The notes beneath the pieces were generated by a model. The model was not told where the DNA came from. It did not search any database and worked only from the letters and a program-made list of their open reading frames with translations. Positions 2,412 to 39,418 of a DNA stretch of 64,000 nucleotides are shown in pieces. The stretch is from Rhytidiadelphus loreus (taxonomy: Eukaryota > Streptophyta > Bryopsida > Hypnales > Hylocomiaceae): assembly GCA_947034895.1 (NCBI GenBank), contig OX344762.1, positions 44,496,760 to 44,560,759 on the forward strand, in the 5' to 3' direction. Each line of letters opens with the position of its first letter. The stretch's first letter is position 1. A program made the translations under genes and the position numbers.

Positions 2412-2438
2412 AACCCATATTTAACTAATTATGGACAA
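2412..2438 (+). repeat. Element A left terminal inverted repeat
   Basis: 27 bp, identical to the reverse complement of 39392-39418. The next bases differ between the two ends. A second ATGGACAA copy just inside (2450-2457) hints at a repeated end motif. Confidence 0.9.
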
Positions 2439-3346
2439 TTACACCAAATATGGACAAATTGATAGTGCACAATGACCTCGAAAATGTGAAGAAACTGAAA
2501 ACAACGATGGAAAAGTGTCGGCGGCCCACCAACACATTTAATATCTTGCTCCATTGGTTTCCTCAAAATGGATTAATGTCAGACAATTTGATTTTAATGG
2601 ACTTGGAAGTATTAAAATTAATGAGTTACAAATGCAACCTTGTGATATTAGAAGCGGTACCTATAACCGTGGAACCCCAGGAAACTGAGGAAAGGCATAT
2701 CCATAGTACAAATCCTATCATTTCCTATGCAAATCCCAAACACAAGACAACTCCAGCCCCTTTACATGTATCAGCTGGCAACCGATAAGAGGGTCCAGAG
2801 TCTCGTACGTAGACATTACAAAACAGTGCAATCCCCATCCTAGAGCATGAGAAGTGAGCATGTTTGGTAGCATAAAGAATAGAAACATTTTCAAAATGCC
2901 GCGCAGCGGAGCTTCATTTAAATTCAAAATTGACATGTACAAATTCTATGCAATTCCAATAATAGAGGCAGACTGGATATGAGAACGTCTAAAAATGTCT
3001 AAGCTAATGTTGCATTATTCAGATGCGCAATTTGTGTCAACGGGCAGCCGATAGTAAAGGCAAAAACAATTGCGTAGAATAAGGAGATTGCAGACATGAG
3101 GCTAGTCTCCTCCTGACCGAAACTGAGAAGAAGTGAATTGGACATCTGGGTAGAGTCCATGAAAACAAGATTTTCCTGGTGACAGAACGGTGCTATCAAT
3201 ACTGAGCAGTGTCACTCCTATCGGCTGGCAGCCGACACCACCTCCCGATTGTTGCTTCTGACCCGCCCAGCACTGTGGTAAGCATTCATCGAATATATCA
3301 GGGGTTTATCGGCGGGCAGCCGATAGCACACAGAAGAGACGTGGCG
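2439..3346. other. Element A left subterminal region, non-coding
   Basis: About 0.9 kb between the left terminus and the 3' end of the DUF7869 gene. It has no supported coding sequence. It holds palindrome copies at 3035-3054 (degenerate), 3219-3238 and 3307-3325. Confidence 0.55.
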
Positions 3347-6300
3347 TTAGTCATCTCCCTCTTCATCAACATCTTTGTCAATAGCTTCCCCGGCAGCCTC
3401 CAGATTAGCAATTGCAGCAATAACCGAGGCTTCCGGAATAACATGAGATGTTGGCGGTCCATTCTTCGCATGCGAGGGCATTCGGTGCGAGTACAAGACA
3501 ATGTTGACATGAACTACCTGCGGCAGACAAAGTTCCTTATGCCATCTACGGGTCCAACACTCCCTTGCCACAACGGCCTTTCCTTCCCTCTTGGCTTTCA
3601 TTGGAGTCCACCACTCTAGCTTGAAGTTTCCATACGATGGCCCAGGAGTCATGTCCACACACTCGAGTACCCGCCCTAGCCAAACCGGCAGATAATTGTT
3701 GTGACATAGTCGGCAGAGAACAAAATCTCCAAGCAGAACATCCATGAATGGATTAAAGGTCAACCTCGGCCTATCCTTCGCAGGCCCGCAGTATGGAGAA
3801 GGTTCCAAGTCGTCCTCCGGAGTCGTGTCAGTCGGATTATTAGGATCCGCCCCCTCATCGCGACATGCGGATCCGTGATCTCTTGTCCAGTCAGACATCG
3901 GCCAGAATCCTTCCTGCAGCAATGTGGGTGTTGCGGGTAGCGGCTTACTAATCTCCGACAGAATTCTTTCCCAGTATGACATACAACCTGCCATTTCCTC
4001 TACGTATCGCTTGTTTCTGGCCATTCCCGATTTCCAGAATTCGATGTACTTCGCTATTCCATTTTTGATGAAGCACTGTTTCTCATTGCATTCGCTTGCC
4101 CTGGCCACTTCTTTGTCTACGTTCCGTTTCCTGGGATTTATGTGGATGTTACCCCAGAGTGCCTTGAACGGAACAGGTCAAGGATCCCCCTGTGGAAGTG
4201 CCGATCCCCCTGAAGCGTTAGCTGTCCACATTTTCACCGGTGGTCCAGGAGGAAGCCACGAAGAATCCGTTGTCCTTTTCTTGTACCTCATGACCAGTCA
4301 TCCTCGATCATTTCCCGACTCTTCTACGTAGAATTTGAAGATATGCTTATCCCCGAGTCCCACGATCTTGTTGACCCCATCATGATGGAATCCCTTTAGG
4401 TAGGATTTGAAGTCCGCCACCTCTTGAACGAACTCCGGGATGAAGGCTACAGTCTTCTTCGAATCCATAAACGCCTTCATTAGATCTGCAAGAATGTAAG
4501 TGTTCTTCCTCTTGATTAGCTTGGACAGATAACTGAAGTGCGCGTCAATGTCTTCGTGTGTATGACCAACAATAAGGAAGCCAACAGTTACTTCCTTAAA
4601 GATGCGCCTGGCAGTGAATAATGAGCAGAATGCCATGAGGAACCGATTCTTATTGTCTTTTGCGGAATTGTCGAGTTGCAAGAACAACTTCCTTGGGAGT
4701 GGAACATGCGGCCGTCCTGGTCTTGGAGTGTTTGTGATTTTATCAGAGGTCGGAGGAATGGATGAGTTGCATCTTGATTTTCCGTGAAGTAGAGCTTCAA
4801 AGAAGGTGTTTTGAGGAGGAGTGGAGAAGAGGATCTTGGATTCCCGAACAGGCGGCAGCTCCAGAGCTCGAAGAACCCTACATAGCGACGATATAGTGAA
4901 ATTGGAATCCCCGGGCCACAGTGATGTGGAGTAATGTGCATATGCGCCATCGCCATGGCCATGCGTGAGCATGCCAGTACACGATATTGGTATTTGCCCC
5001 AGCTCGGTGGTGGCCTTGGTAATGCGTTGCATCCTCGGAATCGCGGTCTTTGTGGTGTCCATCTTGTCGTGAATATTGCAGAGGAACTCTGATGGATTCT
5101 GAATAGATTGTGATCTCCATCCACCATATACATTTATGCAAGCGCGTTGGTAATTGAGATGTCGTTCTTTGTCATCCACTAGGGCTTGCCACTCATCACA
5201 ACCTCTGGGATACTTTGCAATGAACTCGACCAGGAAGTCACATTCTGTGCATTTGGAGAAATTGCTTCCTACCGCCTTGACCTCGATGTTTTTGAAATGA
5301 GTTTTTCGGAGGCGGCTGATGGCAGATTGTGAGACCGGCTTCATATTGCAGACTCCATTGACCTACAAGACAGACCCAATTGCAAGGGATTCCATGACGA
5401 GAGAATCATATGTATCGGCTGGCAGCCGATAGATTGGGATTGCCCGGAAATTAAAGAGGCAATTGAACTATCACTGACCCGCAAGGTGTCGTGATTCTGG
5501 AGGACGACAATTCGGACTCCTAGTGTTGTGTCGGCTGGCAGCCGACAGAAGCTATAACGGAATGCAGAGGAGTGGAGGATAATGGATACTTACATAATTG
5601 ACCTGCTCGCGCATGTGATCCTAGTTCATTGCAGAGGGGACAACCTTGAGATTATCCACGCAATTATTTCCCACCAGTCTAAACTCATTTGGCATCTGGT
5701 CAGCATTCTCATTGATAATCGTCGTGAGAGTTGCTTGAGCCTGAATAGTATGCGGATGTGGTCGCCGTGTCCCCGCGTTTCCATGAGACCCGCTAACAGA
5801 TCCTCCAACGGCCGCAGCCTTGTAGACATGGTATGCCGACCTGGAGACCCCGTGTATAATATATCAGGCGTTTTCGCAGACGTCTACATTTGCGAGAGTA
5901 ACAAATTTTTTCCCTGGAATAACACCTGCATGAAGTTGACTCTGAACTGCGTATGCCATCTCCCTTCTTGCCTCGAATGTGCAAGCATAGAACTTTCGAC
6001 GTAATGTTCTTGTATCCTCCCAGGGAAACGTCTGGCAACATCTGTGCTTGTAGCAGTTTTGTGAGCTGACCTTTCGTATGTCAAGGTCTGACGTTTTTAT
6101 TTGCAGTTTGGATAAGCCCCCGCGATCCTTGGGCAGCACTCTTCGACGCACGGACCGGTATGGATTCTTGGGCACTCCATGCAATCCTCCGTCGTCAGAC
6201 TCGTTCAACTCAGCAGCCTCGGAGCACAAGGTGACAATATCAGAGAGTAGCCTGCCCCCTTCTAATCTTGTGTGGGACAGCCTCCAGCGCATGGTAGTCA

Positions 6301-7534
6301 TTTGTAGTGCCTCATGGTCAGATACGAATATGACACCCACGTCTGAATCTTCGAGGACGCCGTCGTCGCATGCCTCGTCGGGAAGGCAGACCTGGATCAT
6401 CGCTCTACTGAAGAATGAGAAGTCGTCATTCAAAAGTTCACAATATTGATTTCTCCAAAGTGGTCTATCAGGGAATGGAAGACCTGAGTGGCTAGATGGA
6501 GGATCAGAGGTATAGTTGAGGTCTCCACTTCCACTAGTCCCAATAAACACGTCCGCATCAACGATGCTATCACCAGCACTAGGTTCAGATGCACCATCAC
6601 CAGAGGTACTGAATCCATAAACATTGGGGAGATTGTCAGTAGACCCGCGGCTGTCATCGTCGGATGAGTACCGCCTATCATCCCGTTCATCTTCGTCTGA
6701 TGCATTGGCAGGAATCCGTTGTTGTGGTGCCTCTCGAAATTCGGCCAGGACATCGGAAGAGCTCCCTCCACTTTCGCAGTTACCATTCAGAGAAGGTCGC
6801 GTCAAATGAGTTACTCCCGGTCCTGTCGGCTGGCCGCCGATAGGAGTGGGAGACAAATTAGATGGATTGATAGGCCTGACCTTGTAACCAGACCAGAGTA
6901 TTCTGTATCCAACACAGTCCTTCAGTATCACAAAATGTGGAATCTCGCAGTAGGCATTGTGATCCTTGAAATCATCGACAACATGTAGAAGTCTAACAAC
7001 TAGGAAGAAACTGTGTGGAACTCGGAAGCCTTCCCAGAACCCCTTCGGAGAGCATTCAACAATTATGCCAACACCTGCATACTGCAGGTCGATGCCCACA
7101 GTCAGCAGAAGAGCGACCTCCATATTGATAGTGAGAGACAAGAATTGTTGTATGGGTTTTTCATCCATGTTCAGTTGTATCGGCTGCCGGCCGACACCAC
7201 CGCAACTAGATCCTTCTGCCTCTACGTAGGAATAAACATTACTTGCCTCCCACACGATTGACTTCCCCGCGCAGTGTCGAAGGAAGACCAAGTCCCCCTC
7301 GGGAAACGGAATATTCATGTCAAGGTTATCTGGAACATCAAGTACATGAACACGCACAAGGTAGGGTTCGCGGTTCACTACCCTCTCTACAACGGCCCGC
7401 CCCGCGTAATAGAGTCCTTCGAGGGTGAGAGCAACGACTACTCCCTTCCGCAACGTCAGTCTCCCAGAGCTTCCATTCCGTGTGAACGCTTCGATCGGAT
7501 TTGCATCCAAACCAATGCCAACAGATCCACTCAT
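3347..7534 (-). pseudogene. DUF7869 transposase-like protein with two N-terminal TnpA-type domains
   Basis: Two exons, 7534-5594 and 5362-3347, joined in phase 0 (donor GTAAGT, acceptor TTGTAG). Residues 31-104 and 138-221 are two copies of a domain like the C-terminal module of plant En/Spm TnpA proteins (from memory, Pfam DUF8039), recognisable by VALTLEG, NIPFPEGD and AGKSIVWEASNV. A serine/acidic linker follows, then a Cys-rich segment (CYKHRCC) and, in exon 2, the DUF7869 core with LQLDNSAKDNKN and VGHTHEDIDAHFS. DUF7869 is a conserved, probably RNase H-like domain of mobile genes in plants and other eukaryotes; the Asp/His/Glu-rich motifs are candidate catalytic residues. In-frame stops at 5864-5866 (TGA), 5621-5623 (TAG), 4298-4300 (TGA) and 4178-4180 (TGA), without frameshifts, make it a recent pseudogene. 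It diverges from the gene starting near 9.2 kb. Confidence 0.78.
5363..5593 (-). other. Intron of the DUF7869 gene carrying two palindromes
   Basis: The donor GTAAGT follows a TAT codon at 5594 and the acceptor TTGTAG precedes GTC at 5362; both exons join in phase 0. The 231-bp intron holds palindromes at 5413-5431 and 5529-5547. Confidence 0.75.
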
Positions 7535-9179
7535 GATATAAACTTGGTACGGATCTCATACAATGTTGAATATGCACTTGCTCAAAGTCCCCGGAAGTCT
7601 GTATCGGCTGGCAGCCGATACGTCTGAGAACAAAATGAAAGATACCCTATCAAACACAGTGACTTCTAGTTCCCTCCTTCCCACTAATGGTGTTTGTATC
7701 GGCTAGCAGCTGACATCGACCTAGCTTATGGGCGGGCAACCAACAAGACGGATTGTACGGACAATACCCTGACCCTCATTCACATCACAAAGTTGTAAAT
7801 CAATGAGGGAGATAGATTTCAAATACAATGAAGCGATCAAGGAAGTTTGCACTGATATGAAAACATACCCGATCCATGCGAACTTGAGACATGTAATTGA
7901 ATTGGATGTGCAAAATAGGGAGCTCCAAGACATCACAGACTGGATCCACATCTACTGCATTTAATGTGAGTGTGTCCTAACCTATAGATGCGCAATCCAA
8001 TGCATTCTACTGCAAGCGCGTGCAAGGATGTATTCAGTTCTTCTAGTTCACCTATGACTCATGCTCAGATCCTGATCCTGATCCCTCACGCTCCCGGGAC
8101 AGTGTGACTTGTGACTCTATGTCTGCAAGGAGGAAATGAAACTGAAAGAGGATTACCCTCTGGGAATTGGACCTTAGTGAGGAGGTGCGAGACGCAATTT
8201 GGCACTCAAAATTTGAATGCGGAGGAGGTTGAAGTTCCTGTGATTACAAATGAGAGAGGTGTGTACACTTGAGGATCGCCATTGGAAACGTACGCATGTC
8301 CTTGGAATGAGTGTTCGTCACTTTGATGTCTTTGGGAGGATGTGGTGTACGCTTGAGGATCGACAATGGGAACGTACGCATCTCCGAGCAATGAGTGATT
8401 GTCACTCTGATGTCCTTGGGAGGAAGTGGTGTACTGGATTGTGGATGGAATGCGAGGAATGGATGAAATCCATGGATGAATGGAAAAAGACTGTCATGAT
8501 TGCGCCGACGTTGGCAGCCGACACTTGAGTGGGGGAGGGGGGGGTATACTCCCCTGGCCACTCTCATTTCTCCTCATTTTTTCTCCACCACTTTTGCTCT
8601 CGCTCATGCTCTCGCTCTCTCACCGGCCGGTCGATGACATGCGATTGAGGGACTGAGGAGGAGCGGCCCCGCCTGAGGATTTTAGTGCGCAGCCGATACT
8701 TCACCGTGGGCAGCCGATACTTCGTTGTGGCATCTCCAGACAAGGAGATTTATCTTCAGCTGACAGGTGTCGAAGGCCCGCCGATAAGCAACAGCAGCCA
8801 ACAGCGATGGCGTCCTCCGCCACTGAGAGTGACAGGTATGGGTCCATACATTGTATCAGCTGGCCGCCGATACAATTGTTTATGCTTTGATGATATCCCG
8901 CTGTGAATGTATACTATGTTATTTGAATTGAATGAACACATTGCTCTTGTTATCGGCTGGCAGCCGATAGTAGGGGCAGTAGTAGTCTGGACGGGTTTCC
9001 CATATACAACGGGGGGCAGAAATTGTATTTAGGCAGCATGAAATAGGAACTTCAAGGTAGTATCGGCAGGTGGCCGACACATTTGTCTCGGTGTGTAATG
9101 GTTTCCGTTTGAAACTGTCGGCTGGCAGCCGATACCTATGTATGTGCTATGCTGAATGCCACCACACTTTTCTGCGCAG
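7535..9179. promoter_or_regulatory. Divergent intergenic region of element A
   Basis: This region separates the minus-strand DUF7869 gene from the plus-strand ParB/methyltransferase gene, so it should hold both promoters and possibly early non-coding or short exons. It contains at least nine palindromes or half sites, the densest cluster in the window, an 84-bp tandem duplication (8261-8428) and a G-run followed by a pyrimidine tract near 8530-8630. No open frame here is convincing. The acceptor CTGCGCAG ending at 9179 shows that an upstream exon of the plus-strand gene lies somewhere inside. Confidence 0.5.
8261..8428. repeat. 84-bp tandem duplication
   Basis: Two adjacent 84-bp units (8261-8344 and 8345-8428), each starting GTGTAC(A/G)CTTGAGGATCG. 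A third partial GTGTAC start is at 8429. The units differ at several positions, so the duplication is not very recent. Confidence 0.85.
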
Positions 9180-10618
9180 GAAACCGACCCTGATGGCCAG
9201 ACTTCTCGGCGAGCGGATCCTGAACTCAAGTATAATGGCCGACGGTTTTCTCCCACGCGCGACTTGGATAGCAAATCCGGCCATCCAAGAGTGGGGCTTG
9301 TGTTGAAGGGATTACCCGGACCGGCTAGTGGAGATTGCGTGCTCCTTCAAACTGAAGGGTAACATGATGCCAGGCCACGGCAACGTGATGGAAGTTATGG
9401 CAGTTGGTGGAGATGTCCAGGTGATGATCTGCCTACTCCCAATCGGAAATCCGGACGGCGTCGCGGACTATTTTGCAGTCCAGTTGCCTGTCCACAAGTG
9501 CACGGAGGAAGCATGTGGAGAGAAATCCATGGCGAGGGGAATGACATTTGAGGGGAGCAGCCCTTCCGATAGTGAAGACCTTGTTATGGGATGGGAATGT
9601 ATGAAGGCAGAGAGGGATCAACAGAATGCCCTAATCACTAAGGACATGGCGAAAGGGAAGAAGAAGGTGCCAGCGTCGAGGAAGCAAGTGACAAGATCAC
9701 AGGATCCGGCGAATGAATCTACTGAACAGGAGGCCGGGTCGCCTAGCAAACCCAGGAGGAAGGCAAAGGGAAAGGACGATCCGAATCGGGTGATTATTCT
9801 CACACTGGACGAAGCACTGGTACGCGGGAATCACCTGACGACGAAGACAAAGGATAACGAGGTGAACGCCATCTACCAGGCGCTGGAGACGGGACTCCTT
9901 CACGCATTCCCATACCAGAAGCGGCGACTATCTGGAGTCATTCCATCAGACAAGCTTCACATTGCACCAGACGAGCTGAAGTATCGCAAGATTGCGAAGG
10001 ATCGCCTTGGTCAGGTATTCCATTTGTTTCCTATGCCACTACCCCATCTTCCATTTAATGTCCTCCTACCAATAGTGTCGGTTGCCAGCCGACACCCTGA
10101 AGTGGTGATTCTCACTACCTGGATTTCCGTCATTTCAGGTTAAAACCATGTACAAGGGCTATGGGTCTATTAGGAAGAAGCCCGAAATACACGGCATTCC
10201 ATTGAAACGAGCTCCGTTACCTACAGACAAAGGACTGGACGCAGTGATGGACCAATGCCCGGTGGAGGGTGCCACTGTTGTCATCGGTGGTATAATGATG
10301 CCGTGGTGGCAGGCACCAAATGTCAACTGGTATATCATTGGGGGCCAACATACCGTCACCGCCTGCCGAGAACTAGCCGAACAGTTTCCTGATGGCTCGC
10401 CGGCAAAGGCTGATCTCTTGGAGTTTGAGGTCATTCCGGTATTTAGTAGAGACCCAAACACGCTTGTCCGGGTATCCAATGCTCTTAATCTGAACATCGC
10501 GGAGAAGGTGGCAAAGGAGATGTTCCGATCCTGCGCGGAGATGGGGAGGGCGACATGGGTGAAGGCGGGTTGCCCGGAGCCACATCGAGGAGGAGGCAAA
10601 CTGACGGCCGAGGAATGC
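9180..10618 (+). pseudogene. ParB-like / methyltransferase fusion protein, N-terminal part (cut by element B)
   Basis: Exons 9180-10014 and 10139 to about 10618, joined in phase 0 (donor GTATTC, acceptor TTTCAG). The 124-bp intron contains a palindrome (10076-10094). The first exon has an in-frame TGA at 9304-9306, then a basic, Lys-rich linker (KGKKKVPASRK, KPRRKAKGK) that may act as a nuclear localisation signal. The second exon has a ParB/sulfiredoxin-like signature, NWYIIGGQHTVTACREL, which corresponds to the GxxR/H core of ParB-type domains, followed by a helical stretch. ParB-like domains bind or cut DNA, or hydrolyse nucleotides, in bacterial and phage proteins; the role here is unknown. 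Element B interrupts the frame near the ECW codons, and the protein continues at 21351. The homologous gene in element B supports the domain call. Confidence 0.6.
10015..10138 (+). other. Phase-0 intron with a palindrome
   Basis: The exon ends at a complete CAG codon (10014) and resumes GTT AAA at 10139. The palindrome TGTCGGTTGCCAGCCGACA is at 10076-10094. Confidence 0.75.
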
Positions 10619-10699
10619 TGGTACATGAGCGTGGAGCGTGGAGCGTAGAGCAGGGAGCGGGGATTGGTGAGCAGGAAGTGATATTTTAGGAATTTTGGT

Positions 10700-11065
10700 G
10701 AAGGGGTCACAGAAAAAAATGGATGAAACCCAAAAAAGAAGTTTTAAAAATATTGATAAATATTTATAAGAAATTCTGGAAAAATGGATGAAATATAAAG
10801 AAGAACCACTTTAAAGGGTCATAAAACTGGATGTTTGTTAGGAAAAGGTTTGGAAAATGGGTTGAGAATAAACTGATGAAAGTCATGAAGAAAATGGATG
10901 AAGGGAGTTCAAATTAATGGATTAAATTGGATGACAAAAGTGGATGAAGGAAGTTCAAATTAATGGATGAAAGTGGATGGAAAAAGTAGATGAAGAAAAT
11001 GGATGACTTTGAAGTGGATGAAAAAAGTGGATGAAGGCGGTTCTAATACATGGATGAAACTCATG
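10700..11065 (+). repeat. Element B left subterminal GGATGAA tract
   Basis: At least ten scattered TGGATGAA or close variants in an AT-rich stretch, mirrored by TTCATCCA copies at 20.7-21.03 kb. Such clustered subterminal motifs are typical transposase-binding zones of DNA transposons; binding here is inferred. Confidence 0.7.
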
Positions 11066-11930
11066 AAAGTGGATTGAAAAAAAGGATGATTGTGACTCCG
11101 TGAAATAAATGTATGTAATGGATGATGATAGATTACAGTGATTTCTTGAATTCTTTGTCAGACACGCTTCTTGTACTTTCACATACATTAGGGCTGCATT
11201 ATATGGTGTAGCATGATCCTCTTTAAAACAATGAATAAAAAATTGCAACGAAATAGAATCATCTGCTTCTAGACCCACATAACCCACTAGAAATAAATAA
11301 AAATTCTTGCAATGGATTTAGGGTAAATGCATAACTGATGCTAGGGACAAAACAAAGAAAATTAAGAAAACTACTTCTATGAAGAAAAGCACAGAATATG
11401 GTGATGAATAGCATGCTGCCAAAGGGCAAACGGTACTAACCCCTTGTTCAACAAAAAAATCTCTCTCCAATTGTTGTTGAGTCAGTTGAAGACGTCCTAC
11501 GGGGTTTAGGGTTTTCAATTTAGCGGTTGGTAGCAGTCTTAGAAGACCACCCACGTGAAGAAGCAAACTCAACAATAATAAATTAATGCGCCATTGCGTT
11601 GGGACCAATGTTACTTATGCTGCTTATGCCAGGTTCCACCATTCTGGGAAGGTCATGAGGCTAATTGAAGATTCTGTAGATGGGACCCGCCCATACAAGT
11701 ATCGTCTAATCTCAAGCATATCATCATGAAAGATTCGTTTTAGGAAATAGCCGTTGAAGTCAGTGAAGAAGCCGAAAAGTCGATTATGTTCCACCATCTC
11801 AGAACAACTAAATTTGGATTTTATTCACAACCTCCATGATCGACTCCAATACTAATGTTGAGAGCGGGGACCAGTTATCTTCATGCCCTCTACCGATAGC
11901 TTTTTATTTTTGTGATAGGCAGCTCTGAGC
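11066..11930. other. Element B left inner region without a supported gene
   Basis: Short open frames occur on the minus strand (11318-11608, 10955-11287) but match no family and have no splice context that I trust. I see no clear feature here. Confidence 0.4.
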
Positions 11931-13320
11931 GAGATTCTTTCGAATCCTTCACGCCCTGCTGATTGTTTTCTATTTTAGCGCTTGGGGATTTCCGGGGATC
12001 AGTTACCCTTCCTGGTTCTGTGATCTTTTTTTTATGTTGGTGCTTTGGAAATTCGCAGGGATCAGTTGACTTTGACTACTGTGTTGGATGCCTTGACGGA
12101 CCAGGTGGGGAATAGTGGACCTTGAAGCCCTTGGGGTTTAGGGTGTATATTTGTATGTGAGGTAAGTCGGGGATCAGTTGACCTTCACGCCCCCGATAAT
12201 TGTCTTTAGTTTATGTGCACGGGAGCTTAGTGCGTGGATTAGTTCACCTTCACCTCCAGGAGTCTTGTTATTAATTGTTGCACGTGGAAAATGGTGGAGA
12301 GCAGTTGACCTTGACAACTCCGCTGTTGTAGACAGACCATTTGGAGCATTGGCCGCTCTGTGCCGATAAGTCCCAAAGGGCAGGTCGTAATGTGCCCATA
12401 CAAATGCTCAGTGCGGGGATATGATATCATGACGCCCTCAGAACCAATTCTTATTTGTTTTGTGTGGGGGAGCTTAGTGCGGGGATCAGTTGGCCTTCAC
12501 GCCCCCCCGTGATTTGTTTTTTGCTTGATGTGGTCGGGTTCATTGGGGGATCAGTTGGCCTTCACGCCCCCCGTGATTTTTTTTCGGATTTTGTGCTTGC
12601 GGTCCGGCGGGGATCAGTTGGCCTTCAGGCCCCCGCCGTGCAGACAGCGGATTAGGGCCAGCAGCCTCTCGGTGCCGAGAGGTCCAGGAGTGGAGGTGTC
12701 GGTCTGCCCACCCATGAACACACAATGGGGGATCAGTTGGCCTTCACGCCCCCCCGTGATTTGTTTTTTGCTTGATGAGGTCGGGTTCATTGGGGGATCA
12801 ATTGGCCTTCACGCCCCCCGTGATTTTTTTTCGGATTTTGTGCTTGCGGTATGGCGGGGATCAGTTGGCCTTCATGCCCCCGCCGTGCATACAGCAGATG
12901 AAAGTACAGCGGCATCTCGTTGCCGAGAGGTCCAGGAGTGGAGGTGTCGATCTGCCCACCCATCAGCACATAATGGAGTATCAGTTGGCCTTCACGCCCC
13001 CCCGTTATTTGTTTTTTGCTTGATGTGGTCGGGTTCATTGGGGGATCAGTTGGCCTTTACGCCCCCCGTGATTTTTTTGGTGGATTTTGTGCTTGCGTTC
13101 CGGCGGGGATCAGTTTTCCTTCACGCCCCCGCCATGCAGACAGCGGATTAGGGCTAGCAGCCTCTCGGTGCCGAGAGGTCCAGGAGTGGAGGTGTCGGTC
13201 TGCCCACCCATCAACACACAATGTGGGATCAGTTGGCCTTCACGCCCCCCGTGATTTTTTTTCGGATTTCGAGCTTGCGGGGATCAGTTGGCCTTCATGC
13301 CGCCGTCAGTGCAGACTGCA
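11930..13320 (+). repeat. Array of GGATCAGTTGGCCTTCACGC repeats with 247-bp higher-order period
   Basis: Degenerate copies start near 11.99 kb (GGATCAGTTACCC, GGATCAGTTGACC). From 12.48 kb well-conserved copies GGGGATCAGTTGGCCTTCACG recur at about 12480, 12546, 12609, 12726, 12792, 12857, 12974, 13040, 13106, 13225 and 13278. Three units form a higher-order repeat of about 246-250 bp that also includes a GTGCCGAGAGGTCCAGGAG segment. The same unit appears inverted at 18.48-18.81 kb on the other side of the gene. Confidence 0.9.
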
Positions 13321-13463
13321 GAATTGGGCGAGTGGCTTCTTGGTGGCGAGAGGGCTTCTGGAGGAGGTCACGGACTGACCACTGATGTGGGTTCTATAAT
13401 ACAGAGAATGTACACCAAGAACATGCAGAAATACTACATCGATAAAAGAACATCATTTCAAAG

Positions 13464-23720: not shown

Positions 23721-23949
23721 GTCAGAGATATGTGTCCAAATATTTGAGGAGTAACTAGAGTAGGTCATTTAACTTAGTGCTACCTGGCTCCGACTTGTTC
23801 TCTGGGACTTGTCACTGTGTGCCTTCAACTATGCAGAATAGACTATTTATGTAGTGTGTCGGCTGCCAGCTGATACAATAGAATTTTCTTGTTCGAATCC
23901 ACTCATTGTATTGCATCTAAGTCATTATGTACGTCATCTCTCATTGCAG

Positions 23950-28600: not shown

Positions 28601-29933
28601 CTTGCAAGAACTTACAAAAACTTGCAAAAAAGGGTAAGCAAATATTCTCTTCATAAGGAAGCTCACCAGTGAGGCTTCCACTCCCGCTTTGCCTTTCCTG
28701 CCTACTGCACTGAGGCCCTTCACACTTTGACGTGCCACGGCCATCTGGGCGGACTTCTCTTTTTGGGAAGCCGTATTCCAATATTGAATTAGGCGTTCCC
28801 ATTGGTCGGGATCGATGTGCACCGGGGGTTTGGAGTTCTCCCGATCTGTGGAGGACAGCCACTTACTTTTCAACCGAGACCTCTCTGATTTCATAAACTT
28901 CGTCACTGTCGTTCGGAAGGCAGCCATGCTCAAAGGGGACCCAACGTACTCGAACTCGTTGTCCAAAAGCTCCCGCAGCTTCTGGAGAGTGTGAGGCTTA
29001 TGCTTCGACCAATCCACTATGCTCATGTCCATGACTTTTGGAACAAAATTCCGCACCGCTAGGTCCCACGCATTCTTCCCCGAGCAGCCAGGATCCACCT
29101 CGCCCCCCTCAAGCACTTCCACGAAGTTGGGTTTAGGGGGACCCGTCAAGGTCTCTTCTCTTCCAAACTCATAAGCTGTACGCTTCTTCCGCCGACTTGT
29201 GTGCTCAAATGTCCGCTCCACTTCATCGCATCCAGTCTGGTAAGAGTGTCGTCCTAGCGCATTCCGCAGAGGTTGGCGGGGGGGGTGGCGGCTTTGGCAG
29301 CCACTTTCTCGGCTGCCATTGCCATCCTGAATCCTCAGGCTCGTCAGGTGGTGGGGGTGGCTGCGAAGACGGCCTACGTGCAAGGAACTTCCTCGGTGAC
29401 TTCAAGATAGGGGTAGGTTTTGGGCGCTTTGTCCTTCTGTCCACCAACGGCTCTGGTTCCTCCATGTCATTGTCACTGGAGTCGAACAATGCATCCTCTG
29501 CAGCAGCGCACCAAACAGAAAGAGCGGTGAGCAAGACAAAGGCATCCATTTGGTTTAGAGGGGAGACGGAGTGGTTCCCAAATTGACCCATACATCCATA
29601 TTGCGCAAAACAAAGAAAACCCGTACTTGGGGTTGATCAAAGGATGAGGGCGCAAAAAATTGGGTATGCTGGGCAAGTCTGGTTCTGGGACTCCCACTGC
29701 GGGTAAGGCGAATCGGGTCACGCTTCTTCCTCCTGAACCCGACACACCAATGCAGCCCTGACCCTAGCAACCTTGAAAGAAAGCGGGAGACAATTTTTAC
29801 CTGCCGCACCATCCTCCAATTTCGAAAGCCGCTCTACATGTGTACAAGCTATAGCTAAGTGCATCATACCTCTTGCAATGGCCTCTTCATTGGACTCCGT
29901 CGCCTCTGAGGAAGAATTGCGGTCGCTGCTCAT
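25694..29933 (-). CDS. CACTA TnpA-like protein (Ptta/En/Spm transposase family)
   Basis: Six exons: 29933-29801, 29497-28667, 28512-28426, 27383-26400, 26268-26203 and 25959-25694, all with GT donors and AG acceptors and consistent phases. Exon 2 holds a Pro-rich basic linker and the En/Spm plant transposase-associated core, DPDQWERLIQYWNTASQKEK, followed by the usual Arg/Lys-rich segment. Exon 3 gives SSGVGSLTHKV, the short motif after this core in TnpA proteins. Exon 4 has a coiled coil and a low-complexity Ala/Glu/Thr tail. Exon 6 carries the C-terminal beta-domain (VGDEVFLMNPRAVKQKVALG). A run of seven C on the plus strand (25835-25841) shifts this last domain out of frame; eight would restore it. 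TnpA-type proteins bind subterminal repeats and assist the transposase. The gene lies opposite the Tnp2 gene. Confidence 0.78.
27400..28425 (-). other. Long intron of the TnpA-like gene with AGTCGC and ACTCAGACTCACA repeats
   Basis: The interval between exon 3 (28426) and exon 4 (27383) has no coding potential. It contains GCGACTTC/GTGACTG motifs like the element ends and repeated ACTCAGACT/CTCACA words. Confidence 0.5.
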
Positions 29934-32555
29934 TTTGGACTTGTCACCTGTTGCTCCACAACTGCCGTGAGTGCGCTTCTCCCTTTTGCTCCGTCCTCGG
30001 AGGCCCCGTTGCCTGCTACTCCTACGCACAACCTTCTCACCTTTCTCTCGGCGATTTGGCCCCTCACACTCGCGCTTCTTGCGGGAGTCCTGATCGCTGT
30101 GCGATGCAGGTGGTTTAGGGTTCAGTAGGTTTAAGAATACAATGGCCTTATTGAAGGAGCCGCACAAGCACAAAGAAAATCAAAACAACCCAACTGCAGG
30201 GAGAAGACGAAATCATGAAAAAAAAATAAAACCGCTCGGGTTACGCCTGCCTCCTCAAGCGAGACTACGAGAGAGACACACTTGAATTGCCCCGCCGCCA
30301 CCGGTTCCACGTGGCCGCCTTGTTGAGGAATGGGGTTTAAGGCAATTCTTCACTGATTGCACTCCGACGCTACTTCCCCACGACTTCTTCGTCACTCACA
30401 TGAAGTGATACAAAAGATAGACATTGGACGTTGTGACTTCTGCACAACTCCAACACGACTGCACAGTGTCCAAGGCATATGGGCGGCGCGTTTTTCAAAG
30501 CTCATAAACCGTTAACCCTATCGCGGCGGCTGCTTGCAGAGATTAACGGGTTGCACCATGGCTGTGCATAGAAACACACGCGCAAGCCAAGCAAGAGAGA
30601 CGGCCAACTCTGCGGGCAGGGATGTGCGGCAGCGGTTGGGGAGCACAAAATATTCTATTCAGGCGGAGCATGCGGCGTGGAGGACACAACGACATCGACC
30701 AACTTCAGTGCACCCACAAATGCAGGGACAATTGAATTACAAAGTAAGGTAAGGAGGAAACTCACGGTGCAAGTTGCGAGTTGAAAAGAGGCCCGAATTT
30801 TGCGTGAACTTCTGCCACATGCTTGTCCCGTGCCAGTTCATATTCTCCCTTCTGCGGTGGCGGAGACTCCATGCCGTGCCCTGAGCTTCGAGATGCTTGT
30901 CACCTGACCAGAATTTGTTGCCTGCTTCCTTGTGCGTAGGTAAACCAACGTTGTTGATCGGAGCAAAATAGCGTGCAAGACAGGCGCGGAGCTGCACGGA
31001 GGAAGAAGGTCGTTGCCGGCATGTATAGTTTCAAAATCCAAAGCCTCATCTTCCCTTCTATTCAGACTGCCACAAAAAGTGTGATTTGTTCCTCCTCAAG
31101 CAGGTGTGCATTCTTGATCACGACGAGGGAAAAGAGGAAGTGGGTTTGATTACGGGACAGATCTGGCGGCTGACATTTAATTACGAGGTTATGCAATAAC
31201 TCATGACTTGTCCACGACTGAAGGAAGTATTTATACGAGCTAGATTTGCTTCTGATTTTGTTATGATCGCAAAGTGATAGCATGACTCCTAACTCATGAA
31301 GCATTGAAGCCTATATACGGTTCAGGGGGGACACCCTATATACGTCAATTCACAGGATGTCTGTGTGCTGACTTCAGAGACTTAGTGAGGACCCCACGGC
31401 CGGACATTAGACTACAGGCCCCATCCTCCCGAGTCCCGACGACTTGAGATAGTCACGGGTAAGTCGCAGGCTTTGTCTACGGTGACTTCCTCGATACTTC
31501 ATGGTGACTTCTCAAAGCTTCTTCGCGACTCGATGGTGACTTCCTCGCGACTTGATGGTGACTTGATGGTGACTTGTGAGGATTTTGAAGATGATGGACG
31601 CTTGCAGGTGACAGTCGAAGCTGCGACCGCCCCACCCTCTGTTGCAGGGTGTGAAGACGCTGGACAGAACTCGACATCCTTAAACCGTATCGTCCACACA
31701 CCCTCCCACATGAAACCACCTCCAAAAGTTCAGTCACTAAGTCTTCACGCAGTGTGTGCACAACCAAACGGCCACCCTAAATCCCCAAGTGAGCTTGAAG
31801 TTAGCATGCGCCCCTCGGAAGTTAGTTACCAACATGTCTTTGAGAAGTTAGAATTGGCAACTCCTGCTAGACTAGGTGCACTACCAGAGGCAGTCATGTC
31901 ATTGGTATTACCCACAAGTCTTGGCTCCCTAGGTCGGGTCCCCCAAAAGTGTGTTTGAGGGATACTATGTCTTTCGCCATATCTAAAAATTGTACCATGA
32001 TAGGACACAATTTGTTGGCGGACACTTCTGTGCCAGAAGGCGGGCTGGAGGAATTTGTTAGCACCACTGCAACGTTTGCAGCTCCGTGCTAGGAGGAGGA
32101 TCTCTCTATGGCTGCTTTGTTTCAAAAGCGCATATTAAATAAAAAAAGGACGGTACTACTGTCTATGTTTTGTTTCATGTTCACTCTACTAGTCTACTAC
32201 CCCTACAATATCGTGCCTAAAGCGCGTGTGCTGTCCCTCATCCAGACCCGGCACATGTACGTGTAGTATGGAAGTTAGCTACTTAGGATGCACTTGAGAC
32301 CCGAGCATGCGCCCACTGCCTCCCCTCCCCTTTGAATTTGGTTGACAACGCCACGACTTGCCGGGGACCCATCCCCAGTCATGACCGATTCATTTTGAAG
32401 TCACTCAGAAGTCACGTAAGAGTTCCGCGTAGGGCTGTCACTACAATCGCACTTCAAACTTGTTGCCTATGCCATGGCATACTTATTTGTGAGGTGGTTT
32501 TCTTATCTGTGCCCATGCGTTCAATTCAGGGCAGCTATTGGATTTGGAGTTCCTT
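29934..32555. other. Divergent region between the TnpA-like and Tnp2 genes of element C
   Basis: About 2.6 kb with no family-level coding match. It includes the promoter side of both element genes and more CGACTT/GTGACTT motifs (31.44-31.58 kb). An AG just before GCAGCTATTGG near 32530 could be the acceptor of a 5' leader intron for the Tnp2 gene. Confidence 0.45.
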
Positions 32556-35500
32556 ATGGAGGATCCAATTATGCCAGCAATACTTCCATGCAGTGATAGG
32601 CAACGGCAGCGGCTACGGGATGACAAGATGTGGAGTAGAGAGCTTCGTCGGGCTTCCGAGCACCACTTGAAGAGGTTGGCTTGCCCATGCAACAAATGCC
32701 GTGGAGGAAGGAAGTTACTTATTCATAACGTGAAAGAGCACCTCCTCCGAAATGGTAGACATCCAAGTTGTCGAATTTGGAGAGGTCCAGGTGACAAGGA
32801 CTCTTCAGACGAAGAATGGGAGTGCGAATTTTGGGGACCAACGGCGGCAGAAGCGGTTGGGATTGATGCAAATGTGGACACCGCAAGCATGATCGAACAA
32901 GCTTTGGAGCATGAGGATGTAATCGCAGATGCCGCCGACCAAGTGCGTCGTGAGGTGACCGATGCCTTTGCCATTGCGGACTTCGTCCATGCAGATTGTT
33001 TGGGAGTGGATGTGGAGGACACAGCGGAGGCAGAGGAATGCAGGGACGACACCAACCCGCCTACAATGGGTGTACCCATCGATGGAGCTGAGGCCAACGA
33101 AGACACAGATGGCCAAGCACTGGAGGATTCCATGCAGCATTTATACTTCGGCGCCCGATCCAGCAAGATTGGAGCCACAGTGTTGCTCATGAATCTCTGT
33201 ACGGTTCATGGAGTGAGCAACAACTGTGCAAATGAGTTGTTCAGTCTCTTGCACCTACACCTTCTTCCGCAGAACAACACATTGCCGAGAACGTACCATG
33301 CAGCAAAGACCTTTACAGCAAAATTGGGGCTCACTTACAACACCATCCACGCTTGCGAGAAAGGGTGCGTGCTGTTTCGCGGTGAGCATGCGGAAGCCGT
33401 ACGTTGCCCTAAGTGTGGAGGATGTCGATACAAAGACGAAGAGCGACGGGCTCTACCACTCAAAGTATTGCGTCATTTCCCCATCATTCCCCGGCTGAAA
33501 TGGATGTTTAGGAGTCCTAACATCTCCAAGTTAATGGTGTGGCATGTAGAGAACCACAGTGATCGTGTGGGCGGGGACGGCCTTGTCCGGCATCCATGTG
33601 ATTCGAAGGCGTGGCATCACTTCCATGAGAATGTTGACCCCACCTTCCAAAATGATCCCCGAAACACTCACTTTGCGTTGGCAGCAGATGGAGTGAATCC
33701 GTTCAAGCAAAATAGGTCGTCTTGGTCCACTTGGCCAATTGTGCTGTTGAATTACAATATCCCTCCGTGGTTGACTACAAAGAAGTTTTTCCTCCTTTTG
33801 GCCTTGTTGATTCCAGGTAAAGAGTCCGTGACATTGGAAACCTTCAATGTGTACCTCGCGCCCCTCGTGGACGAGTTGCTGGAGTTATGGGAAGGTGTTC
33901 CTGCGTACGATGTGACGAAGGATGTAGGATCCAGATCATTTCAGCTACGGGCCATGCTGTTGTGGACTATCCATGACTTTCCAGGCTACGGCACAGTTGG
34001 AGGGTTTTCACATCAAGGTTACGCGGCATGTCCTTGGTGTGGTGTGGACCTCGGCGCCGAGCACTCCGTGGAGTTGGGCAAACAAACGTATGTCGGGACC
34101 AGGCGATGGTTGCCCGAAGATCATCCATACAGATCAGCTGCAATGAAGGACCACTTTGACGGTGAAATGGAAACTAGGCCTAAACCACGTGAAGTCACAG
34201 TGGAGGAACAAATAGAGCACGCCAGGAACTGCGAGGCATGGAGAGCAGCGGGACATAGAGATGGTACAACCGGGGACCCTTCAAAGGTGCACGGCGTGAA
34301 GCGACTGAGCGATCTTCACAGATTGTCCTATTGGCAGGTGAGTGCAACTGCTCTTTGAACTCCTTCAGGCATGAAGGCGACTTATAGGTGACTTATAGGA
34401 AACTTATAGGTGATTTTCAATCTACTGTTCTAGTGTCCTGGTAGTCACATCAGAGTAGTACGGAAGTGTCAGCTTATTCTCGCAGTGACTTGTGAGTGAC
34501 TTTTGCCAGTGCTAGCGGGGGCTCCATTTTCCGGATTCGGTCTTGTATGTGGAATAAGTGCCTCATGTTGTTTGAACTTGTAAATAATGAAGTGTTGTTA
34601 CTGACCCACTACACGCTTTTTACCTCTGCAGAAGCTTCTGATTCGGTACACCTTGGACGTCATGCACTGTGAGATGAATCTGTCTAAGAACTTTTTGAAA
34701 ACAATAACAGGGAAGAAGGATACTGTGAAAGTGAGAAGAGATTTGCAGAGGCGGAATTTGCGCAGACATCTTTGGCTGACCCCAAATCCCCATAACCCAG
34801 GAAAGATGCTAAAGCCTCGAGCTCCGTATGTTATGCTAGATTACGAATTTGAGAAGTTTGCAAGGTGTCTGGAGGCCTTGAAGGCACCATCCGGCTATTC
34901 CTCAGACCTGGGCAAGTGCATTCGAAAAAAGAACTTTGGCGGTCTAAAGTCGCACGATTACCATGTGTTGATGCAACAGGTGCTGCCATTGGCACTTCGA
35001 GGGCTGATGCAGCCTGGGCCACGATTGGCTGTCATGAGAATGTGCAAGGTGTTTCGACGCTTGTGCACAAAGGTTTACAACCCAGCGGACTTTGCATCAT
35101 TGGAGTTTGATGTTGCGGAAAGCATGGCATTGCTGGAGATAGAATTTCCGCCTTCTTTTTTTGACATAATGACCCACCTCCCCTATCATCTAGCGAAGGA
35201 ACTTGACCTTTGTGGACCTGTAAGCGCCCGTTGGATGTATCCGGTAGAACGTTACATGAAGGTCTTAAAAAACCACGTGAGGAACATGGCCCGACCCGAA
35301 GCGTGTATGGCAGAGGGGTACTTGAAAGAAGAGTGCCTCGGCTTCATCACGGAGTACTTGCAGCGGTTTGAGCCCACACAGAGACGTGTTTGGGACGAAG
35401 ATGAAGAATATGGTGACGCCGAGGAGGTGCTACAAGGGGCCGGAAGGCCATATGTGATGAGCCCCGAGCTTCGAGATGTCGCTCACCAGTATGTGCTGAC

Positions 35501-36617
35501 AAACGTGTCCCTTATGGAGGATCTAAACGCGTAAGTCCTTGATGCATCCTAAAACCGCCGGCTAGGTCCCCCAAATTTCGCAACAGTTGTTATCGCCCCC
35601 TTCGTACATTTGTGCGGCTCTGGGGCAGTGGGTGTTGGTTCCCCATTGTTGGTGACAAGTTGTGTCAGAGTCGTAGGAAAGTGACTTCCCAGTCACTTAT
35701 CAATCACTTACCAGTCGTACACCACTAACTTTCCAACTTCCACGTAACTAGGTGTAGTAAAATTTTAGTCACTCTAGTCTTGGAGCCCTCGAAATGTTCC
35801 TCAAGTGTTTTATTGTTCTCGACTTTTTTCTGTACCTCCTTACCATCTGCAGACGGGCCATTGAGCGTGTTTGGTATGTTTCTGCAGGAAATGGCAAACC
35901 GAGGTTGAGCAAGATCCGTCTACTACAGCATTGGCAGAGTGGATTATGAATACCGTGGGTGAGTCTCAGTTGAATCTCCGGAACCTAGACGACATGGATC
36001 GCCTCTTGTTAAGCAAGAAGCCATCCCGAAAGGCCACTCGATATACACGGATCTTGGCATTTGGTAACCGGTTCCGGGTAGATGACGACACCTCTGCTCG
36101 AATGGTGAGCTACAACAGTGGCATCGCATCGGTGTTTTCACTGCCCGCAGAAAGTGATTCGGATGCATCAGTTCCATATGTAGGTGTTCTCCAAGACATA
36201 TTCCTCTTGGATTACGGAGCACTGCAAACGCCCGTCATCCTACTGCGATGTGAGTGGGTGAAGCCCTTCGACAATCCTGGGAATCCAACATACATCCGAG
36301 ATGACGACGGCTTCTTGGTTGTCAACTTCCGCCACAAACTCCCTCGCTTGTCGGAGCCCTTCATCTTTCCTAGCCAGGCGACGCAGGTTTTTTTCTCAGA
36401 TGTTGTCGATAGACCAGGTTGGAAAGTTGTCTTACGCAAAGAAGCAAGAGCAAAGCGGGAAGTGGTTGACACCGCAGACGCCTTCATTAGCACCACAGTG
36501 GACAGCGTGGGATTAGTAGCACCCAGGCAACTTCCTCGACCAGTGCAAAGTGTGAACTTAGTGGGTGCTATAGAGTTGTCTGTAGAAGACAACTTATTAG
36601 CACAAGGAGCATACTAG
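32556..36617 (+). CDS. CACTA Tnp2 transposase (Transposase family tnp2, DUF4218, DUF4216)
   Basis: Three exons, 32556-34337, 34632-35530 and 35888-36617, with GTGAGT and GTAAGT donors and CTGCAG acceptors. They join to 1137 codons without a stop. Residues 26-75 are the transposase-associated zinc domain (CPCNKC at 43-48). The tnp2 catalytic domain follows with CPKCGGCRY, FPIIPRLKWMF, RHPCDSKAWHHF, LAADGVNPF, LLIPGKES, DFPGYGTVGG and CPWCG, ending in DVMHCEMNL of exon 2. Exon 2 also has DUF4218 (SHDYHVLMQQVLPLALRG, YHLAKELDLCGPVSARWMYP). Exon 3 is DUF4216 (YVGVLQDIFLLDYGALQTPV, QVFFSDVVDRPGWKVVL). The protein should cut and join the CACTA ends. The complete frame, matching ends and target duplication suggest a recently active element. 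I chose the ATG that directly precedes the zinc domain. Confidence 0.95.
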
Positions 36618-37370
36618 TGTCATAGTTCCATAGACAACTAGTACATAGTGTCGCTTAGTCATTACTGAGTGACAATGGAGTCGCGTACAGTCGTATAGCA
36701 GTCACGTATTATGTATGACTCCGAGCCTACTCTATGGGCCCATTTTGAACTTGGTGAACTATATTTCGCAATCTCCTTTAAGCCTTGGCATTGGCTTCCG
36801 CCTCCCTTCATTGTGACCCTTGAAATGTCCACTATGTACTTACTCCAGCACAATTCTGAGGCGCAGCCGCTTTACAGTAATTACCTGCATGCAGTATCTT
36901 AGTGAGTGAATGATCTCTCTTCGCCCCTCATAGAACTCTACATTTTGTAGGTGCAGCTCCCATGAGATCTCTAATCCTTTCTTTGTGGCCCCTCTCTTTG
37001 GTAGAATCCTACATTGCGTGCCAATCGCGATGAAGTCACAGTACAGTGTCCGTCAAGTCACGGAAAAGTCGCTCACAAGTCATCGAAAGTGACTCCCTGT
37101 GACTATTGCATAGTCGTCCCCGACTGTGCCAATCCACCTGCTGACTGTCGTGCCACATCAGCACATTTTCATCGCTCCCTACAGCAGTCGCGGATGAAAC
37201 GTTACCCCTTCGCTGCAGTTCATGTCGTAGTCACGAGCGCGACTGCTCCACAACTCAGTCCTTGTGCATAAAATGAGACGGTGCAATTAGGGAGGTGCTA
37301 GTCGCGCGGCAGTCGCATTTTTCCTGCAGTCACATATTGCAGTCACATATTTGGCAGTTTTCTTGTAGTG
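36618..37370. repeat. Element C right subterminal array and terminus
   Basis: About 750 bp with dense GTGACT/AGTCAC/CAGTCG motifs, ending in GGCAGTTTTCTTGTAGTG. It mirrors the left end. Confidence 0.8.
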
Positions 37371-37373
37371 GCA

Positions 37374-37453: not shown

Positions 37454-38208
37454 TGCGGATGCTAGTCAACTTGTCGCTGGAGGGCGCTTACTATATCGAC
37501 TGCCAGCCGACACTATTATTAGAAATTGTATAAATGTCTTGTACATATAGCGTAGGACTTGTACCATATGTTTAAAAACTTTTGTATGGATTTTTTTGCT
37601 AAACAATTACGTGTAATAAAGGCATTTACCGACGCCTATCCAGCTATATAAGACGGATAGTCGTTTCGCTCTCGAAGCATTCAAATGTTTCCTTCGAGAG
37701 TTTGAATGTTCTAGCACGATCACTGTAATCAACAGTTATAGAATTCTTGGATGTAGTCGTTGAATCTCCACTAAACTGACTAGACTGCATGTAATGACTC
37801 AGTCTCCCAGACGATCTGCAAATGCTTCTAGCTTGGGACTCTGGCGGGACTGTGGCATTAACTGTAGCAAGGCTTGTTTAGTGGAGACTCATCGATTGCA
37901 TCTGGTCTTCTACAACACTTGTTTACAGTTCTCTGCTTTACCCTTTCACTCTTTAAGGAAGCGTTTGATTGCTTCCAGAGCAAAAGCGCGCTTTGCCATA
38001 CATGGCTGGGCATGGCCATCTTTTCTTTTACAAACTCGCACACTCATACTCACTTCTCGTGCCTAGATTTCGGGGGGAATCATTGCTTACTGCTTTATCA
38101 TTTATCAAAAACCCTACGTATCGGCCGCCAGCCGATACCTTGCATGCCGGTTCTCAGCTCCCTTGTAATTACCACATAATCTTGAGTCATCACATTTCTG
38201 TTCTGTTC
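37454..38208. other. Element A spacer before the second NIF-like gene
   Basis: There is no secure coding sequence. Palindromes are at 37494 and 38119. The latter lies in the apparent intron that ends with the acceptor CTGTTCAG at 38208-38209. A short open frame at 37794-38066 was not convincing. Confidence 0.45.
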
Positions 38209-38209
38209 A

Positions 38210-38861
38210 GGAGTCCACCAATGGGCAACCCCATACATTCAAAAAGTGTGTGGTGCTCTGCGTCACGGGATTGCTTTGTTTTGTCGACCCGAATATCGAG
38301 GTGGATAAGTGGGACCCTCACCGAAACATTGTTAGACGTCCAGGGCTCGTCGGAATATTTTCTACGTTGTTTGAAAAGTTTCACGTCGGGATTTGGTCGA
38401 AAATGCCAATGCATGAACTGCGGCCGCTGCTTGCTCACTTGCTTCCGAAAGATGTCATTCAAAAGCTATCATTTGTATATGGGAGAGAATACTGTGTAGA
38501 TAGGCAGAATTTTCCTTAGTGCTACAAAATGATATCAACACTGCTTGCAAAGGGACCGTCCAAGGAAATTTGTTCATTTGACCAAGTGCTCATGGTTGAC
38601 GTCTGCCCGATTTCACTACGGAGAACACTGGATACCGCGTGCTATATTCCCCTGGCATTTATGGGGCATCTCAACTTCCCAAATGCTAGTAGAGTCATTC
38701 CAAATATTTCAACGGACATCATTCCATTCATATATCCCATGTACGAGCATGATTCAGTTTCGGAATATGTCAAAGTCACCAAAAGACCGGGACAATTACA
38801 CTATGAAGTGGCACACACCATGAAATACGGGCATCCAAATTGGGATGGGATATTCGGGTAG
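38210..38861 (+). pseudogene. Second FCP1/NIF-like domain, with in-frame stop
   Basis: The reading frame after the acceptor TTCTGTTCAG gives VVLCVTGLLCFVDP at the phosphatase motif position, RRPGLVGIFSTLFEKFHVGIWSK, LSFVYGREYC, LMVDVCPISLRRT and a final HDSVSEYV. This is the same motif order as plant NIF/FCP1 proteins. The catalytic DxDxT reads CVTGL and the late DD pair reads DV, so it would be a pseudo-phosphatase. A TAG at 38517-38519 interrupts an otherwise continuous frame (the next codons TGC TAC AAA ATG stay in phase), consistent with a single C-to-T change from CAG. It is a tandem relative of the domain at 23950-24708, not an identical copy. Confidence 0.65.
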
Positions 38862-39391
38862 AGACTTCTTGTTGATATATGGGCTGCCAGCCGATACACT
38901 GCTATCGTCCGTTGAGGTGCACAGTATATACCTTCATCGCCGTCATCAATTTTATTGCCTTCATCAACTGTACCTCCAAAATCAAATGGATTGTCATCAA
39001 CGCATTACTCACTTTCACATCCTACTTTCGGGGCCGCATCACGTTCTGAGATATCGGCTGCCAGCTGATACTCCTCGTAGATTCCTCTGTAGCTGATCTA
39101 GTTAGTGTGAGGCAAATGTAATGTGGCTTGTGCTTTCAGCAGCATGGAGGTTGTCTTACCCTGCTCTGATAGTCAAATCATTCATCTTAGCTAGTTCATG
39201 TGGACTATCGGCTGGCATCCGACACTGTGCCACGCCTTGTGGTCATCAGCTATGTAATCTGTCATTCTCAATATATCATGTTATTTTACGTTTCGTATAC
39301 ACTGCGGGCTGTTCTGTATGATGATTGTTGCACAAAAATCATTGAATTCCACTTTATCGGCGGACAGCTGATTGAATTCTGGACCATGGAT
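38862..39391. other. Element A right subterminal region
   Basis: Non-coding DNA with four palindromes (38878, 39052, 39206, 39355) leading to the right terminal repeat. This mirrors the palindrome-rich left end. Confidence 0.6.
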
Positions 39392-39418
39392 TTGTCCATA
39401 ATTAGTTAAATATGGGTT
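39392..39418 (-). repeat. Element A right terminal inverted repeat
   Basis: Exact reverse complement of 2412-2438 (27 bp), followed by the second GCGT copy at 39419-39422. Confidence 0.9.

Follow-up and report, generated by a model that had tools for sequence, protein, structure and literature searches.

The best-documented case of plant transposons countering silencing in a sequence-specific way is that of the Arabidopsis VANDAL elements. Their VANC protein, according to the accessible text of two papers, binds to short motifs of noncoding DNA, also within introns, and strips off methylation (PMC5735166, PMC10398659). One of them suggests, in its accessible part, that such anti-silencing may be more common (PMC10398659). 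The ParB fold is often fused in phages to N6_N4 methyltransferases, as stated in the accessible part of a ParB-fold survey (PMC12704722). Here we describe a transposon of the moss Rhytidiadelphus loreus that invites comparison with both. It lies in a 64,000-nucleotide stretch of contig OX344762.1 (assembly GCA_947034895.1, positions 44,496,760 to 44,560,759), hereafter the window, and carries a DUF7869 transposase-like gene (gene A), two further genes (B and C) and a dispersed palindrome. The window copy is a dead, doubly interrupted member of a family of 13.8-kb cut-and-paste DNA transposons. With even confidence, we propose that its palindromes are bound by a protein of the element, most likely the gene B product, for self-marking.

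The sequence AACCCATATTTAACTAATTATGGAC stands at 2412 (+) and 39418 (-) of the window, against a mean of 0.00 expected from 100 dinucleotide shuffles, and the two ends are identical over their first 27 bases, forming perfect terminal inverted repeats (TIRs). A sequence-only reading of the window had proposed these ends, a GCGT target-site duplication (TSD) and a host frame that rejoins across them; direct sequence checks confirmed all three, the flanks joined without the element giving a single open frame of 784 residues. This host frame (1146-2411 plus 39423-40511) matches tnp2 (Transposase_21) at E 1.7e-5 and 24.5 bits, below the cut-off of 28.6, and from its sequence looks like a tnp2-like transposon gene itself. 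Searching the genome (407 Mb, five large contigs) with a 25-base end pattern at up to 3 mismatches gave 191 matches, and the reversed pattern gave 0.

Matching ends do enclose 37 kb, and the sequence-only reading took the whole of 2412-39418 as one giant element. Comparison with other copies tells otherwise. Ten copies (E1-E10) were drawn from plus/minus end pairs 11-18 kb apart among 100 listed of the 191 ends, with larger pairs (35-130 kb) set aside. Each has a perfect 4-bp TSD, and all ten TSDs differ (TTTT, TACA, ATAT, AAAA, ACCT, TCTT, ATAC, TAAA, CTAT, AAAG). Five copies are 13,792-13,806 bp long, the others 11,405, 13,221, 13,490, 15,813 and 17,819 bp; E6-E10 have extra gaps or insertions of their own. 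Aligned to the window, the copies first break at 10610 (eight copies), 10607 (E1) or 10577 (E9), all resuming at 21139, and break again at 24708 (nine copies) or 24705 (E10), resuming at 37371-37372. Because both inner blocks are absent at these points from all ten copies, the window copy is read as a 13.8-kb element with two nested insertions, the second with its own ends and duplication and the first with a 10-bp duplication. We therefore reject the single 37-kb transposon: the ten copies rule it out and leave it practically no chance of being right.

A second family is represented by F1 (13,279 bp, TSD ATAA, imperfect ends), whose gene order is that of E1. TIRs with a TSD of constant length, as expected of DDE/D cut-and-paste elements, were thus found in all 12 copies checked (the window copy, ten E copies and F1), always at 4 bp. 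The sequence-only reading had asked whether the gene order recurs between matching ends with 4-bp duplications, and it does. Ends lacking the genes would have spoken against an element; no end pair closer than 11.4 kb, and so no short copy devoid of genes, was seen among the 100 listed of 191 ends. As for genes lying outside such ends, of 80 gene B loci 62 are faced by a listed end no more than 100 kb away; for the remaining 18 the incomplete list of ends makes this no clean test. Viewed from the ends, gene B lies inward within 100 kb for 78 of the 100 listed and outward for 1, which argues that it belongs with them.

A repeat finder returned the recurrent motif TRTCGGCTGSCAGCCGAYA, a 19-bp, almost perfect palindrome whose variable second base is mirrored. 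Counted at up to 4 mismatches to TATCGGCTGSCAGCCGATA, there are 27 sites in E1, 27 in F1 and 19-27 in the other nine copies; shuffled E1 had 0.0 on average (20 mononucleotide shuffles). All 26 sites in the window fall in the element's own sequence, with 0 in 23 kb of nested insertions and 0 in 27 kb of flanks. Exons account for 65% of E1, and 24 of its 27 sites lie outside them (P 8e-9); for F1, whose exon bounds are approximate, the figure is 23 of 27. One or two sites stand in each of the five introns modelled in E1, and the widest gap between sites is 2.1 kb. Noncoding palindrome positions are 80.7% identical between E1 and F1, other noncoding positions 59.4%.

Genome-wide there are 834 sites at up to 1 mismatch and 0 for the reversed pattern. 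Of 50 exact sites listed, 48 have a match to gene B or to the ends no more than 15 kb away, a placement shared by 0.7-1.3% of the two chromosomes. The two exceptions are C1:385515, flanked by a listed end and a gene B match that are 75 kb from each other, and C2:23298421, which is 39 kb past a gene B match and on its far side from the listed end; either may sit within a swollen element. In a third family (locus L061, 43-46% identical across a portion of exon 3), a search at up to 5 mismatches, a threshold without a shuffle control, gave eight related sites: four in the stretch separating exons 3 and 4, two in that separating exons 4 and 5, one inside exon 4 and one past exon 5. In three of seven exon 3 homologues (P0121, P0122, P0127), translation continued beyond the splice site yields residues that spell out the palindrome; the strict peptide pattern occurs in no other of 128 proteins scanned. 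A looser reading by eye finds palindrome-fitting VG[CG]PP[TI] or RLPAD-type peptides in P0001, P0006, P0009 and P0010. From these sequences the motif seems old and stable. No palindrome was found in 4.2 kb of two copies of a DUF7869 family that has no gene B match close by (left end not reached), nor in four 3.6-kb DUF7869 loci.

We propose that a dimeric element-encoded protein would bind the palindromes, coating and marking the element. Gene B is the best candidate for the binder because sites track gene B and the ends, while none was found in the covered part of the DUF7869 family with no gene B match close by or in the four DUF7869 loci. The most likely purpose would be to counter host silencing or to organise element chromatin, such that the genes stay active; less certainly, the coat would also bring together two ends 13.8 kb apart. 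The anti-silencing function is suggested by the VANC precedent, and by this analogy the element most likely works like VANC/VANDAL anti-silencing, although we claim no membership. VANDALs too have a short motif of their own that is concentrated in noncoding DNA, that of introns among it, according to the accessible text of both papers (PMC5735166, PMC10398659). The likeness is one of motif distribution, and VANDAL ends are degenerate, unlike those found here. The VANDAL21 motif, YAGTATTAY, is moreover described in that text as tandem, in one orientation and fast-evolving, whereas our palindromes are dispersed and conserved; that VANC motifs are tandem and fast-changing weakens the analogy.

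The palindromes may instead be binding sites of the DUF7869 transposase, serving end synapsis, autoregulation or enhancement of transposition, while gene B does something else. In En/Spm, TnpA binds many subterminal motif sites; here E1 has its first site 0.35 kb from the left end and its last (4 mismatches) some 45 bp short of the right end, and both full families compared contain gene A. Yet the sites are spread through the element, all five modelled introns included, rather than being subterminal only. The DUF7869 family without gene B has none in the part covered, and against 1,806 first-look DUF7869 candidates there are the 834 sites, of which those listed follow gene B and the ends. We regard transposase binding as possible but would not bet on it. 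Hijacking by the element of a host protein that binds DNA, such as a transcription factor, would suit conserved sites within intergenic stretches and introns. With 48 of 50 listed exact sites near element anchors and the other two perhaps in swollen elements, however, such a protein would have almost no further targets, and we consider this improbable.

Two readings give gene B a more specific activity. In one, its dimer would be a ParB-type clamp that loads at the roughly 27 parS-like palindromes, spreads, coats the element against silencing and pairs its ends; we hold this tentatively, as rather unlikely. In the other, gene B would be an active ParB-methyltransferase that methylates the palindromes as a self mark, as phage fusions may. 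The frequent fusion of phage ParB folds to N6_N4 methyltransferases favours it, in the accessible part of the survey (PMC12704722), and gene B apparently has the same order, a ParB-like and then a methyltransferase-like stretch; sequence homology to the phage fusions was not detectable, and gene B alone adds a NIF-like end. Several searches bear on this second activity. No methyltransferase appeared among the Pfam, PHROG or PDB-profile matches of gene B. N4/N6 DNA methyltransferases have a DPPY-type catalytic motif, and none like it was seen in gene B by eye. What we take to be a motif-I-like methyltransferase stretch does follow the ParB-like stretch, across the exon 3/4 junction, but the predicted model of exon 3 (predicted local distance difference test 48.7) is too poor to judge. 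Active methylation by gene B seems to us highly improbable.

Gene B of E1 runs rightward in five exons with GT-AG introns, totalling 1,465 codons, of which one is a stop, plus a final stop; an acceptor-like site just upstream of exon 1 suggests that an earlier exon precedes those modelled. In the window, exon 2 is cut by nested insertion 1, resuming at about 21150-21157, and exon 5 by nested insertion 2, resuming at about 37374-37453. Among exon 3 matches, 109 of 133 in-frame stops are TAG, and 5 of 9 stop changes in fetched copies are TGG or CAG to TAG (shared stops counted separately). This excess fits C-to-T decay, so that the copies look formerly methylated.

The sequence-only reading had described gene B as a divergent fusion of ParB-like, methyltransferase-like and FCP1/NIF-like folds. 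A multi-domain partner gene with a NIF-like part holds up; the first two folds, for which gene B has no Pfam match, are unproven. The spliced 1,465 residues had no homologue at E <= 0.001 among 7,995 scored, and exon 3 alone had 7 among 7,997. An exon 1-2 piece gave one chance-level tblastn match in phages (E 4, a terminase), and exon 3 none in viral contigs. Against PDB, exon 2 had no match by sequence or profile, an exon 1-4 piece matched seven chance-level chains, mostly nanobodies, and the exon 3 profile had a single match, a nanobody. Exon 2 may be ParB-like, by motif-level resemblance. Among five fetched relatives of it (L062-L066), one matched DUF6551 at 0.0074 and 16.3 bits, below the cut-off of 26.8, and also, weakly (0.02), phrog_1033, 'ParB-like partition protein'; these weak matches of a relative and the motif resemblance support the fold, where exon 2 itself has no profile match. 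GQH is invariant in 6 of 6 sequences. Relatives of exon 2 at 30-40% identity occur in many open reading frames (ORFs) of the genome, up to about 560 residues long, seemingly a broader set of ParB-like proteins carried by repeats. None of 54 divergent relatives has one of the 150 scored DUF7869 matches (of 1,806 candidates) within 20 kb, and these ORFs may belong to other repeat families.

Pfam DUF7869 (PF25273) matched gene A at 4301-5362 (-) with E 8e-42 and 143.4 bits against a curated cut-off of 26, bearing out the transposase-like gene of the sequence-only reading. The two TnpA-type domains it had added had no such Pfam match in gene A ORFs and were rejected; the En/Spm-type domains that were found (Transposase_24, Transpos_assoc, tnp2) are all within the nested CACTA element. 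In E1 gene A runs leftward as two open frames, 667 and 671 residues long, that an intron of about 0.2 kb separates; this intron is supported by Ceratodon P0006 and Physcomitrium P0010, which by our reading cover both exons. The 3' exon frame of the window copy is broken into ORFs 3347-4177 and 4298-5362. The nearest named relatives come from two mosses, Ceratodon purpureus and Physcomitrium patens, with Riccia sorocarpa also named; PDB gave nothing at E <= 1. Gene A is one of the DUF7869 proteins of mosses and liverworts, whose database entries bear hypothetical or domain-only names; the present description adds the structure of the element, its accessory genes and the palindromes. It would be a DDD/E transposase that cuts at the element ends and inserts with a 4-bp stagger. 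DUF7869 is abundant in the genome, with many open frames near 1,000 residues among the candidates. Five of its loci (L002-L006) are 99.6-99.9% identical over 3,391 bp, which indicates that some DUF7869 families were recently active.

Gene C follows gene B in E1. In another copy its NIF match reaches 25.6 bits, above the curated cut-off of 21.8 (E 1.1e-5), while that of gene B in the same copy is below it (E 0.0052, 16.9 bits; window exon E 0.053). Active FCP1/NIF phosphatases have a catalytic DxDxT motif at the profile start. The matches here start at profile positions 30 and 35 of 160, and DxDxT was not at its expected place (VLCVTGLLC in gene C, LFIEVQGTIM in gene B). Because the matches begin past that place, the NIF-like domains of both genes are probably protein-binding modules. 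Nonsynonymous to synonymous substitution ratios (dN/dS, Nei-Gojobori) were computed between E1 and F1 for eight gene segments, of which the gene A 5' exon and gene B exons 1, 4 and 5 were only partly aligned; dS exceeded 1 in 7 of 8, making the values rough. F1 carries stops and frame breaks. Judged by these ratios, genes A, B and C were all under past selection as parts of the element.

Features of the window element and its nested insertions (window coordinates)
Feature	Position	Strand	Evidence
TSD GCGT	left copy 2408..2411, right copy 39419-39422		4-bp TSDs in 12/12 copies checked
Left TIR, 27 bp, perfect	2412..2438	+	identical ends; 191 genome matches to 25-mer, control 0
Right TIR	39392..39418	-	matches left TIR
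Gene A 3' exon, DUF7869 transposase	3350..5362	-	Pfam; E1 copy model; dN/dS 0.061 (E1 vs F1)
Gene A 5' exon region, N-terminal half	5555..7506	-	no Pfam domain; dN/dS 0.195 over aligned part
Gene B exon 1 (first modelled)	9180..10014	+	dN/dS 0.134
Gene B exon 2, ParB-like motif IGGQHTVTACREL	10139..10610	+	dN/dS 0.048; relatives in other repeat ORFs
Gene B exon 3	21351..22655	+	dN/dS 0.080; 96 genomic matches
Gene B exon 4, linker-like	22770..23708	+	dN/dS 0.341
Gene B exon 5, NIF-like	23949..24708	+	NIF 0.053; dN/dS 0.081 over aligned part
Gene C, NIF-like	38211..38858	+	NIF 1.1e-5 in related copy; dN/dS 0.119
15 palindrome sites TRTCGGCTGSCAGCCGAYA	2769..10094		starts 2769, 3035, 3219, 3307, 5413, 5529, 6824, 7178, 7602, 7697, 8854, 8951, 9061, 9116, 10076
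5 palindrome sites	21230..23875		starts 21230, 21289, 22715, 23456, 23857
6 palindrome sites	37494..39373		starts 37494, 38119, 38878, 39052, 39206, 39355
Nested insertion 1, 10.5 kb, not the element's own	10611..21139		~10-bp duplication CTGACGGCCG/CCGACGGCCG; absent in 10/10 copies
Nested insertion 2, CACTA transposon, not the element's own	24709..37370		TIR CACTACAAGAAAA, TSD GCA

The duplication around nested insertion 1 is 10 bp with one mismatch. Five of its ORFs were scanned without finding a Pfam domain, the single match (Coilin_N, 0.094) being at chance level; inverted arrays of GGGGATCAGTTGGCCTTCACGCCCCC-like units lie near 12.5-13.3 and 18.5-18.8 kb. Nested insertion 2 has the CACTA termini and 3-bp duplication of a CACTA (En/Spm) element, with tnp2, DUF4216 and DUF4218 domains and a Transposase_24 match at 28589-29401. 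Elsewhere in the window, an inverted repeat at 55971-56258, starting CACTAGAAGAAAA and finishing TTTTCTTCTAGTG, is likely a CACTA-type miniature element, and an AT-rich 128-bp tandem repeat (6.8 copies) occupies 42704-43572.

The Sola superfamily of DNA transposons, reportedly described by Bao et al. in 2009, is said to have 4-bp duplications and a DDD transposase. On those two features our family may be Sola-type; genes B and C are not known to be part of Sola elements. With En/Spm (CACTA) elements it would share a second protein and many binding motifs, the binding here being predicted. Those elements have 3-bp duplications, a tnp2 transposase and a subterminal motif, whereas ours has ends AACCC and a 4-bp duplication. 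Fungal transposons with TET/JBP genes are likewise DNA transposons with an accessory DNA-modification gene; in the accessible text their accessory protein is another one and their transposases are of other superfamilies (PMC12730594).

In the open-licence literature searched we found no paper on DUF7869, a Pfam family without assigned function, and among the papers listed none on a DUF7869 transposon with genes B and C and dispersed palindromes. 'TIR', 'TSD' and 'DUF' are absent from the accessible text of a Physcomitrium transposon paper (PMC7466625). The ParB-fold survey includes eukaryotes, and in the accessible main text 'transpos', 'moss' and 'plant' occur 0 times (PMC12704722).

If self-marking through the palindromes is correct, the element would be a second design, with one conserved palindrome and selected genes, in a plant lineage other than that of the VANDALs, and would imply that self-marking evolves repeatedly. 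It would also open self-marking to tests in a moss through knock-out and methylation profiling. The ParB-type clamp, if real, would be the first partition-style system known to us that is built into a eukaryotic transposon, and a gene B truly derived from ParB would link bacterial partition biology to eukaryotic transposons.

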